64,000 bases of DNA, taken from Frondihabitans sp. 762G35 (GTDB taxonomy: Bacteria; Actinomycetota; Actinomycetes; Actinomycetales; Microbacteriaceae). The stretch lies in NCBI RefSeq assembly GCF_002074055.1, contig NZ_CP014619.1, positions 1,364,001-1,428,000 of the forward strand, given 5' to 3'. Position 1 is the stretch's first letter, and each line of letters opens with the position of its first letter. Shown one piece after another: positions 59,085 through 64,000 of this stretch. The notes under the pieces were generated by a model that was not told where the DNA came from, searched no databases, and saw nothing but the letters and a program-made list of their open reading frames with translations. The position numbers were made by a program, and so were the translations under genes.

Positions 59085-59169
59085 GTCCGGGTGGCGGAAA
59101 TGGCAGACGCGCTAGCTTGAGGTGCTAGTGCCCGTATAGGGCGTGGGGGTTCAAGTCCCCCCTCGGACA
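59085..59169 (+). tRNA. tRNA-Leu (GAG anticodon)
   Basis: Class II tRNA of 85 bases. The acceptor stem GTCCGGG (59085-59091) pairs with CTCGGAC (59162-59168) with one G-U. The anticodon arm is CTAGC-TTGAGGT-GCTAG, giving anticodon GAG, which reads CUC and CUU leucine codons. A long variable arm (TGCCCGTATAGGGCG) and a T arm (GGGGG-TTCAAGT-CCCCC) complete it. The discriminator base is A and CCA is not encoded. A terminator begins at the next base. Confidence 0.97.
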
Positions 59170-59276: not shown

Positions 59277-59591
59277 GGCACGGGGGACGGCGCTTCGCGC
59301 GTCGTGGGCACGAGGTGCGGCGGCACGGGGGACGGCGCTTCGCGCGTCGGGGGCGCGAGGTGCAATGGCACGGGGGACGGCGCTTCGCGCGCCGTGGGCA
59401 CGAGGTGCGGCGGCACGGGGGGCGGCGCTTCGCGCGCCGTGGGCACGAGGTGCGGCGGCACGGGGGGCGGCGCTTCGCGCGCCGTGGGCACGAGGTGCGG
59501 CGGCACGGGGGGCGGCGCTTCGCGCGCCGTGGGCACGAGGTGCAATGGCACGGGGGACGGCGCTTCGCGCGTCGTGGGCCGGGGGCCGCGC
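59277..59591. repeat. Seven-copy 45-bp tandem repeat
   Basis: Units start at 59277, 59322, 59367, 59412, 59457, 59502 and 59547. Each begins GGCACGGGGG and has the core CGGCGCTTCGCGCG. Copies 4 and 5 are identical; the last diverges after GTCGTGGGC. Variable positions are the base after GGCACGGGGG or GGCACGGGGGG (A or G), a T/C in GCGTCG or GCGCCG, and the unit end (CGGC or CAAT). Each unit can fold into a short hairpin around TTC/TTCGC. A partial copy lies at 59737-59767. Confidence 0.95.
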
Positions 59592-61323: not shown

Positions 61324-62649
61324 ATGACAACACGAATCGTTATTCTGGGTGGTGGTTCGGCGGGTCTCCACACCGCGCTGTGGCTCCAGCGGAAGCGTCC
61401 CCCGCAGAGCGCGAGCATCACGGTCATCGACCCGAGCCCGTACATGACCTATCAGCCGTTCCTTCCCGAGGTCGCCGGCGGCCACATCGATCCGAAAGAC
61501 GTGACCGTCCCGCTGCGGAAGACGCTGCGCCGGTCGAAGTTCATCCAGGGCGCCATGACCGGGATCGACACGGCGGCCAAGACCGTGACCGTCTCGCACG
61601 TCGAGGGAACGACCTCCGAGGTCGCCTACGACCACCTGGTGGTCGCCCTCGGAGCCGTGACACGCACGTTCCCGACACCCGGCCTCGCCGAGAACGCCGT
61701 CGGCTTCAAGAGCGTCGAGGAGGCGTTCTACGTCCGCAACCGCGTCCTCGCGAACATCGAGAAGGCCGCGTCGACGACCGATCCCGCCGAGCGGGCGAAG
61801 CTCCTCACCATCCTCTTCGTCGGCGGCGGCTACACCGGCGTCGAGGCGCTGGGCGAGCTGAACGACGCCGCCAACGCCGCCGTCGACCAGTACCCGCAGC
61901 TGTCCCGCCACGAACTCCGCTTCGTCCTGGTGGAGGCGCTCGACCGCGTCGCCCCCGAGGTCGGCCCGGAGCTCAGCAAGTGGACCCTCGGCGCTCTGCG
62001 CGCGCGGGGCATCGACATCCGGCTCAAGACCACGATGCCCTCCTGCGAGAACGGCGACTGCGTCCTCAGCGACGGCGAGACGATCCCCGCCGGCACGATC
62101 GTGTGGACGGCCGGCGTCAAGCCGAACCCGGCGCTCGACGCGACCGACCTCCCCCGCGGACCGAAGGGTCACGTCAACGCGAACGCGCGCCTCGAGGTCG
62201 TCACCGACGAGGGCAAGCGCGTCGACGGCGTGTGGGCTCTGGGGGACAACGCGCAGGTTCCTGACCTGACCGCGGCCAAGCAGCCGGCCTACTACCCGCC
62301 GAACGCTCAGAACGCGGTCCGCCAGGCCCGCACCGTCGCCGAGAACATCCTCGCGTCCATGGCCGGCGAGCCGCTGGCGGAGTACCGCCACGAGTCCGTC
62401 GGGACCGTCGCCAGCTACGGCATCGGCAAGGGAGCGGCCCTGATCCAGGGCGTGCACCTCAAGAACGTCCTGGCGTGGCTCGCCCACCGCGGCTACCACC
62501 TGCTGGCGATGCCGACCTACACGCGCAAGTGGCGCATCCTGACCGGCTGGATCACGAACTTCGTGAGCGGCCGCGACGAGACGACGCTGGAGAACCTCAC
62601 CGACCCCCGGGCGTCCTTCGTGGCAGCCGCCGGAGGCGTCAAGGAGTAA
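61324..62649 (+). CDS. ndh: Type II NADH dehydrogenase (NAD(P)/FAD-dependent oxidoreductase)
   Basis: Single-subunit, non-proton-pumping enzyme that passes electrons from NADH to menaquinone, 441 residues. The FAD-binding GGGSAGLHTALWL is at about 9-21 and the second Rossmann motif FVGGGYTGVEALGEL is near 165-179. ALGDNAQVPD is the FAD site near the C-terminus. The last 100 residues form the usual membrane-associated region (GVHLKNVLAWLAHRGYHL). It would feed the bcc-aa3 chain at 10-18 kb. A hairpin with a T-rich tail follows. Confidence 0.92.
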   Translation: MTTRIVILGGGSAGLHTALWLQRKRPPQSASITVIDPSPYMTYQPFLPEVAGGHIDPKDVTVPLRKTLRRSKFIQGAMTGIDTAAKTVTVSHVEGTTSEVAYDHLVVALGAVTRTFPTPGLAENAVGFKSVEEAFYVRNRVLANIEKAASTTDPAERAKLLTILFVGGGYTGVEALGELNDAANAAVDQYPQLSRHELRFVLVEALDRVAPEVGPELSKWTLGALRARGIDIRLKTTMPSCENGDCVLSDGETIPAGTIVWTAGVKPNPALDATDLPRGPKGHVNANARLEVVTDEGKRVDGVWALGDNAQVPDLTAAKQPAYYPPNAQNAVRQARTVAENILASMAGEPLAEYRHESVGTVASYGIGKGAALIQGVHLKNVLAWLAHRGYHLLAMPTYTRKWRILTGWITNFVSGRDETTLENLTDPRASFVAAAGGVKE

Positions 62650-63494
62650 TCGAGACACCTCTCGGCCACCGAGGCCCCCGCTTGCTGTGCGAACCATAGT
62701 GAGCGGGGGTTTCTTCTGTCAATCAGGGGATTTCGGGTGACGTTTCCCGTCCAGAGGGTCCGCCGCGTCTTTCCGAGATCACCCGTCTCACCCGTTGCAA
62801 CCATTCGGGGTACACGAACTGCGGTCATTGGGGAGGACTCCCGTCCGGGGGGTCTCGACGACCCTCGACGGGGACCCCCCGATCGGCCCTGCGGTTGAGG
62901 AACGGGCCCGGAACCCCGATCCCTGCAGGCATGGGGATCGAACGGGGTCCCGAACCGAACGGATCGGTCGCCCGACGACCGGAGCACCGCTCCGCCCCGA
63001 CGACTCCCCCGGGGCCTCCCGCACGCCTCACCCGGGCCACGGGTCCACTCACCCGTTTCGCTCACCCGACGAGGCACGAGCGGAGTCCCCCGAAATGGGG
63101 GCATGTGCTTCGTGTGTCGGATGCAATACCGTCAGAGCACACCCGGTAGAACTGGGGAAGTACCACACCCGAAGAAACACCCGCGGTCCAGCCGCGGAAC
63201 ACCCGTAGAACACACCCGAAAAGCTGCACCCGACACCCGAAATCGTCGACGCGCTCCGAGCCTCGAGACAAGCCGTACCCGACGGCCCCTCACCGGATCA
63301 GACATCGCGTCGTCGCCCGGGTGGACGACTGGAACCCGATCTCCGCTCGTCCACTCGAACCCGGCCGCCGATCACTCCCGAAAAGTGATCTGTCGGCACA
63401 GCGCCGCCTACCCGAACCTGAGATCCATGCTTACCCTGCAGCCCTCCCGTGCGCTTTCGCGTACCCACAGCCGCCCCGAATCGGTTGTGGAATC
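62650..63494 (+). other. 845-bp intergenic region with a cluster of CACCCG motifs
   Basis: No credible gene on either strand: the open frames lack codon bias, family motifs and ribosome-binding sites. After the ndh terminator, CACCCG occurs 12 times on the + strand (62780, 62789, 63029, 63050, 63063, 63140, 63166, 63178, 63200, 63213, 63227, 63234) and once inverted (62734). Seven lie within 100 bases, mostly as ACACCCG. A 7-bp hairpin CGATCCC/GGGATCG is at 62917-62940. The base composition is less GC-rich than neighbouring genes. Confidence 0.8.
62675..62715 (+). terminator. Terminator after ndh
   Basis: CCCCCGCTTGC (62675-62685) pairs with GTGAGCGGGGG (62699-62709), 11 bp with two wobbles, over a 13-base loop, then TTTCTT. 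Confidence 0.82.
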
Positions 63495-64000
63495 ATGACC
63501 GGCCTCGGCCGCGACATCGGCCAGACCCGCCGTGCCGCGTTCCCCGTGCCGGTGCGATCAGCGCAGGCGGAGTGGGCGGATCCAGGCGATCGGGTGGGCG
63601 GCGCCTCCGGAGTCGGCTGGGCGGTGCGCTACCGGCGCCGCCTCCTGGCCACGGACGCGATCATCGTCACCCTGAGCGTCGTCGTCGCCTCCTTCGTTGA
63701 GGCGTTCCGCGAGGGCCTCGACAAGACCGCGGCCGGCATCGCCGCGGCCGCTCCCGAGTCGGTCTTCGAATCGATCGGCTACCCCGTCGGGATCGGCGTC
63801 CTCTGGGCGCTCTGCCTGGCCGTCCACCGGACCCGCGACCTCGCCGTCGTCGGGACCGGCGCCGCCGAGTACAAGCGCGTCGTCAACGCCACCGTCCTGA
63901 CGTTCACCGTGATCGCCCTGATCATCTCGATCACCGGCCACCAGAGCATGCGGGCGTACTTCTTCGTCGCGCTGCCCGGGGGTGCGCTCGGCCTCATCGC
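63495..64000 (+). CDS. Probable polyprenyl-phosphate sugar transferase, N-terminal part (truncated by window end)
   Basis: An open frame from the ATG at 63495 runs off the window, giving 168 residues. A polar N-terminus of about 45 residues precedes RYRRRLLATDAIIVTLSVVV, the first of four transmembrane helices seen so far (about 50-67, 93-109, 125-146 and 150-168). The pattern GTGAAEYKRVVNAT and the segment RAYFFVALPGGALGLI match the membrane half of exopolysaccharide sugar transferases (WbaP/CpsE type). The catalytic cytoplasmic domain should lie beyond the window. The identification rests on this half only. Confidence 0.7.
   Translation, partial: MTGLGRDIGQTRRAAFPVPVRSAQAEWADPGDRVGGASGVGWAVRYRRRLLATDAIIVTLSVVVASFVEAFREGLDKTAAGIAAAAPESVFESIGYPVGIGVLWALCLAVHRTRDLAVVGTGAAEYKRVVNATVLTFTVIALIISITGHQSMRAYFFVALPGGALGLI

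Follow-up and report, generated by a model that had tools for sequence, protein, structure and literature searches.

What does a dense cluster of CACCCG words do in the 845 bp that separate a pyridine nucleotide-disulphide oxidoreductase gene from a bacterial sugar transferase gene (PF02397) in Frondihabitans sp. 762G35 (Microbacteriaceae)? The window, by which we mean the whole 64-kb stretch of DNA that was analysed, covers positions 1364001-1428000 of the 3.41-Mb single-contig genome. As the first-pass annotation had counted, the interval 62734-63239 contains 13 copies of CACCCG, of which the plus strand has 12 and the minus strand one (at 62734); seven are packed into 63140-63239 and six extend to ACACCCG. 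The gap as a whole holds 12 forward and two reverse copies, and in 1000 dinucleotide shuffles of the 845-bp sequence the forward count was never reached (mean 1.05, largest 5, 0/1000); by such shuffles 0.25 copies of ACACCCG are expected against the six present, and ACCCG occurs 16 times forward and three times in reverse. Over the whole 64-kb window the excess is mild (89 CACCCG against 73.2 expected, reached by 2/100 shuffles). The concentration is also rare genome-wide, since the pattern CACCCG-N1-30-CACCCG-N1-30-CACCCG occurs only 10 times in the 3.41 Mb, some matches overlapping, with six in the gap and four elsewhere; the reversed pattern, used as a control, has none.

The earlier statement that no gene explains the region was borne out, as none of its seven mechanical ORFs is above the Pfam cut-off (three weak matches, best E 0.089). 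The 23-codon ORF that ends on the sugar transferase ATG, a start codon aligned in seven genomes, is kept in 7/7 genomes, yet its substituted cells number 17/29/14 by codon position, which is not coding-like, and we rejected it as a protein-coding gene. Elsewhere in the window a tRNA gene is found at 59085-59169 (RF00005 match, genome 1423085-1423169) and a tandem array at 59277-59579 (45-bp unit, 6.7 copies, 93% matches). Beyond the window, another array with a 93-bp unit and 6.8 copies is located near the polysaccharide cluster at 1433754-1434382 of NZ_CP014619.1.

When the 850 nt upstream of the gene were aligned for seven Frondihabitans, conserved islands were seen amid diverged DNA, in the order 5' to 3' of TCACCCG half-sites, a palindrome, TAnnnT about 25 nt on, a variable CACCCG-rich array and about 260 nt strongly conserved to the start codon (Table 1). 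The block first singled out is conserved in part: the last ~260 nt before the gene are kept in the seven genus members, while within the array at 63139-63239 the CACCCG copies differ in number and position. Among 80 ortholog loci, 12 have the pattern CCCC..AA..GGGG no more than 1 kb 5' of the gene (three Frondihabitans, five Frigoribacterium, L042, L045, L051 and L082), at -377 to -622 in eleven loci and at -141 in L082. In those orthologs that were read by eye, TAnnnT follows the palindrome, about 10 nt farther off in Frigoribacterium. From this footprint we infer a promoter and a transcript start near 63139; a generic sigma-70 scan list did not contain the predicted promoter (63087-63132). 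The predicted leader folds with a z-score of -2.8, none of 100 shuffles being as good, and in Frigoribacterium a close counterpart of its CCUACCCGAACC element stands immediately before what appears to be the start codon.

Table 1. Features of the gap and its neighbours, in window coordinates
Feature	Position	Strand	Remarks
Pyridine nucleotide-disulphide oxidoreductase gene	61324-62649		5' neighbour of the gap
Gap without explaining gene	62650-63494		845 bp, between oxidoreductase and sugar transferase genes
Upstream TCACCCG half-sites	62734-62794		62734-62740 inverted; 62779-62794 direct pair
Three TCACCCG half-sites	63028-63068	+	directly 5' of predicted promoter
Palindrome CCCCC-GAAAT-GGGGG	63087-63101		putative activator site; conserved in genus, similar in some other genera
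-10-like hexamer TACCGT	63127-63132	+	25 nt after palindrome; TAnnnT in relatives; phylogenetic footprint
Predicted untranslated leader of sugar transferase	63139-63494	+	~355 nt; start placed from the -10-like hexamer
Dense (A)CACCCG array	63139-63239	+	variable in relatives
Hairpin 1, GCCGU-ACCCG-ACGGC	63272-63286	+	1/5 pairs varies in genus
Hairpin 2, GAUCACU-CCCGAAA-AGUGAUC	63370-63390	+	stem changes in relatives, loop core kept
CCUACCCGAACC element	63406-63419	+	near-invariant
23-codon upstream ORF	63427-63498	+	TGA overlaps sugar transferase ATG
Hairpin 3, CCACAGCCG-CCCCGAAU-CGGUUGUGG	63465-63490	+	ends 4 nt before start codon; stem covaries
Bacterial sugar transferase gene (PF02397), 5' part	63495-64000	+	ATG at 63495; 518 aa, continues beyond window end

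Relative to the predicted promoter the CACCCG copies fall into two groups, those up to 63068 lying 5' of it and those from 63140 on lying within the predicted transcript. The cluster is a mixture of two things, upstream TCACCCG half-sites and the ACCCGA repeats of the predicted leader, and the two are best treated separately. CACCCG itself was rejected as the functional unit, the conserved core being ACCCGA/CCCGAA, often in hairpin loops. Among the readings first offered, a long structured leader fits best, given that the gap contains a predicted promoter and, 3' of it, hairpins, both of them conserved; a multi-site operator fits the upstream TCACCCG copies only, and a stand-alone small RNA gene is unsupported because conservation continues to the start codon.

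The three predicted leader hairpins are well supported by comparison of the seven Frondihabitans sequences, in which the loop core CCCGA is invariant in all three. Of the cells contributed by their 18 pairs, 120/124 (96.8%) are paired, compared with 23-48% for slid partners. The stems were derived from the window's own letters, a choice that in itself tilts this measure towards the unslid version. More weight attaches to the both-sided changes, which amount to 16 cells against 6.3 in shuffles (0/500 reach it), with a covariation score of 0.376 against 0.139 (again 0/500). Less extreme values were obtained for the number of pairs with a both-sided change (7 against 4.5, 19/500) and for further pair types (14 against 10.3, 18/500). 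None of the seven copies in the dense array reaches a stem score of 5.

The same loop is met in the leaders of other orthologs, 14 of which were read and found to present ACCCGA(A) in short hairpin loops on differing stems. CCCGA had a stem score of at least 5 at 48 of its 188 occurrences in 25 leaders (25.5%), compared with 5.7% of 822 controls, and by this fraction it ranks sixth of 147 pentamers; CGAAT, CCGAA and CGAAA, which rank above it, overlap the motif, and ACCCC and CACGA, also above it, do not plainly do so. Over the 80 ortholog loci the hairpins number 34 in leaders (0.77 per kb), 66 in the rest of the strand (0.093) and 51 on the opposite strand (0.068), and nine other pentamers gave leader densities of 0.00-0.20 per kb, the overlapping ACCCG and CCGAA giving 0.45 and 0.59. 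In a 400-nt interval scored at 22 of the 80 loci, three of which (L036, L037 and L054) come from genomes also represented in the Frondihabitans set, at least one hairpin was present in 17, at least two in 10 and none in five. The sugar transferase leaders of the seven Frondihabitans have 3, 1, 3, 3, 4, 3 and 3 hairpins; in a 398-kb sample of the window's own genome, 1823 of 1960 bins of 400 nt had none, 132 had one, five had two and none had more, compared with the three of the leader. The Frigoribacterium loci L038-L041 and L069 carry the loop ACCCGAATC or ACCCGAACC on a perfect stem of 14-15 bp, which is unusually long, between about -138 and -366 as counted from the start of the tblastn match.

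The hairpin CCTGTNACCCGAANTGCAGG alone, sought with at most two mismatches in 249 Microbacteriaceae genomes, gave 59 places in 50 genomes, none in the window's own genome, against 13 for the reversed control. At 0-1 mismatch there were 18 places, of which 17 (16 loci) were examined and the one in G116 was left out; at least two of these loci, L156 and L162, are on contigs that, judged by their length, already figure in the 80-ortholog set. Eleven of the 17 best places precede this sugar transferase, as located by tblastn, at a distance of no more than about 400 nt. At two loci that bear the sugar transferase the hairpin precedes something else, namely an unannotated ORF followed by one resembling a WecG/TagA glycosyltransferase (L151), or a small protein without a Pfam match and a DUF5122-like protein (L158). 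The sugar transferase was not found at L159, where the hairpin precedes a PglD-type acetyltransferase, nor at L161, L163 or L166. Beyond these, 2/297 genomes at the order level have the anchor hairpin with no more than one mismatch; one of the two belongs to the same family, and both occurrences look like chance. DNA similarity to the whole gap outside the genus was limited to two weak short matches (G022, G050).

A second site in the window's own genome, on the minus strand at 2410116-2410196 of NZ_CP014619.1, consists of CCCCATTAGGGGGG, TATAGT and then two CCCGAAA-loop hairpins (CGTGAA-CCCGAAA-TTCACG and CGTGA-CCCGAAA-TCACG). Its promoter is similar (CCCC-N4-GGGG), and the gene behind it encodes a giant secreted PKD/laminin-G protein of 1578 aa. 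Equivalents in four other Frondihabitans have 2, 3, 3 and 1 hairpins, compared with two in the own genome. Pairing at this site was 78.9% against 76.3% shuffled and at most 48.4% slid, and its covariation score was 0.153 against 0.174 at two slides, the own sequence and that of G004 looking out of register in helix 1.

A triple-pattern search of the seven Frondihabitans brought 122 matches, compared with 20 when the pattern was reversed, and many of the 122 are coding repeats. Of 16 stretches examined, L209, L217, L221 and L222 were coding-looking or unclear and were excluded as targets (L209 and L222 have one hairpin each). A hairpin was present in the leader of a GT2 glycosyltransferase (L216) and in that of a pectinesterase-fn3 protein (L218) and its equivalent L219, the latter also with a CCCC..GGGG palindrome. 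Repeats without a strong hairpin were found before another GT2 gene (L215), a Rax2 propeller (L223), a Big_8 protein of the own genome (L210) and a presumably secreted protein (L220); the palindrome is present at L215 and L223. At L216, some 0.8 kb away from the GT2 leader and on the opposite (minus) strand, a further ACCCGA-type cluster with the hairpin CCCCA-CCCGAAG-TGGGG lies at ~2872 and precedes an ORF with a lipoprotein-like N-terminus. As this leader type is met in Microbacteriaceae ahead of genes for exopolysaccharide and for secreted surface proteins alike, it appears to mark a regulon.

We propose that the cluster is probably part of a promoter together with a structured mRNA leader bearing ACCCGA-loop hairpins, and that the leader is most likely read by a trans-acting RNA-binding factor. 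An RNA starting near 63139 would display repeated ACCCGA elements, several of them in the loops of small hairpins, and the factor would recognise these loops cooperatively, in either the nascent or the finished mRNA, and so control translation or elongation of its target mRNAs. Hairpin 3, standing so close to the start codon, could be the control point. The start of transcription, the reading of RNA rather than DNA, the factor and the direction of control are all parts of the proposal that we infer. More tentatively, Microbacteriaceae may have a post-transcriptional regulon of their own, Csr-like with a different code, in which an RNA-binding protein reads ACCCGA loops and coordinates the building of the cell surface; the exopolysaccharide, adhesin and plant-surface enzyme leaders could then plausibly, if not yet probably, be its members. 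Little is known of how high-GC actinobacteria regulate their genes after transcription. A family of leaders with a short loop code, recurring in plant-associated bacteria in front of capsule, adhesin-like and pectinesterase genes, would serve as bait for a new RNA-binding regulator, and it predicts a testable set of co-regulated surface genes.

The alternative that survives best, though we regard it as unlikely, is that the repeats are double-stranded DNA operators and that a transcription factor binds (T)CACCCG/ACCCGA cooperatively on both sides of the promoter. Several downstream repeats are unpaired, as would be expected of DNA sites, but the arms around the downstream loops change in step and the copies are nearly all on the coding strand (ACCCG within 1 kb in three Frondihabitans, 12-19 forward against 1-5 reverse). 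Mismatch counts, 7 G-T and 3 A-C with a background of 19 and 9, do not discriminate between RNA and DNA. On the upstream side, the TCACCCG sites resemble the Streptomyces BldM Group I consensus, given as TCACcCgnncGgGTGA in PMC4125116. The likeness to a BldM Group I operator lies in the palindrome TCACCCGTTCGGGTGT, found in five Frigoribacterium loci at the place that corresponds to the half-sites of 63028-63068, with one mismatch at the 14 specified positions of the consensus; two Frondihabitans (L033, L034) have TCACCCGTTCGGGGGT there, with two mismatches, and other relatives have three (L031, L032, L035) or four (L030). The gap of the window, in contrast, retains half-sites only, and its best match has four mismatches, which is chance level (111/200 shuffles as good), with none at three or fewer; the matches in L042, L045, L048 and L051 are likewise at chance level. 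Since the best match in the window is no better than chance and four relatives have 3-4 mismatches, a putative BldM-like activator at the upstream sites is only a lead. A further island, TCACCCGTCTCACCCGTT..CGGGGTACA..GCGGTCATT at 62778-62822, is conserved in the seven Frondihabitans about 300 bp 5' of the predicted promoter and is possibly another promoter or regulator site.

Returning to a leader read as RNA, it is improbable that it works by transcription control, either by loading Rho onto C-rich RNA or by processive antitermination for a long exopolysaccharide operon. The leader is C-rich with a negative GC skew, and it precedes a polysaccharide cluster as JUMPstart elements do (PMC2864571). 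However, no plus-strand terminator-like site was found in 62640-63640, and at E <= 0.001 the seven Frondihabitans genomes contain one PF02357 (NusG) match apiece, so that there is no sign of a specialised NusG paralog of the LoaP/RfaH type, which led us to reject antitermination of that type. Rho is also not known to need a fixed CCCGA loop. Pairing of the loops with an RNA partner, either a small RNA or tRNA-Pro(CGG), is more improbable again: the anticodon loop UUCGGGA of tRNA-Pro(CGG), whose gene and loop were read directly, is complementary to UCCCGAA, and CCCGA is the complement of U33-C34-G35-G36-G37, but the base 5' of CCCGA is often an A, which does not pair with A38, and in tRNA-Pro G37 normally carries a methyl group. 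Finally, an effect of chance or of the composition of GC-rich DNA is very hard to credit, because although the hexamer count is near expectation over the whole window and CCCGA-type clusters occur elsewhere (18 clusters of at least three [ACT]CCCGA in the 398-kb sample, three of which contain a single hairpin; among six control motifs, [AGT]TCGGG yielded 17 clusters, seven with a hairpin, and the other five yielded 0-7), the local shuffles, the hairpin covariation and the recurrence across genera speak against it.

The preferred reading, a leader recognised through its ACCCGA loops, invites comparison with several known systems. Among the open-licence literature records listed, none describes the element; looking for the word ACCCGA tests this only weakly. 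Rfam families offer a likeness only in kind, that of the cis-regulatory leader; a search of 62600-63700 gave three matches at E up to 10, far below the gathering score and outside the predicted leader, and six related loci gave one sub-threshold microRNA match at E up to 0.5. The JUMPstart/ops-RfaH, EAR and LoaP leaders are alike in being a conserved RNA element that leads a polysaccharide cluster, but here there are many repeats, and these also stand before secreted-protein genes.

The Csr/Rsm system is similar in that several hairpins per RNA present one short loop sequence and in that exopolysaccharide and surface genes are targets. It differs in the loop code, which is ACCCGA/CCCGAA in the leaders and not the GGA that CsrA reads. 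CsrA (PF02599) has a single match in each of 7/7 Frondihabitans genomes (at 271811-271963 in the own genome), a protein that is unusual in actinobacteria. In the two loci read (L278, L279) csrA adjoins an flhF-like gene. Three ACCCGA-type motifs close together were not seen by eye around csrA in these two loci or around ANTAR genes in four, and no Csr-type decoy RNA was seen. CsrA was rejected as the reader of ACCCGA on the absence of GGA from the loops and of a motif cluster from the two csrA loci read, and on its flhF-like neighbour there.

Targets of ANTAR proteins resemble the leader in carrying small stem-loops in tandem, some of them joined by short linkers, with a conserved A and G in the loop, and in standing before a gene. 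According to PMC8164766, their two loops are hexanucleotides with A1 and G4; the leader, in contrast, has loops of 5-9 nt with G at position 5 from the A (A-CCC-G), and more than two copies, many of them unpaired. The A1/G4 hexaloop being absent, the leader was rejected as an ANTAR target by the published loop rule. An ANTAR-domain protein (PF03861) is present in 7/7 Frondihabitans genomes, and an ANTAR-like reader of a seven-base loop is possible. Our best reading is that the element is an undescribed cis-regulatory leader which would work as Csr and ANTAR targets do, while belonging, by the features tested, to neither family.
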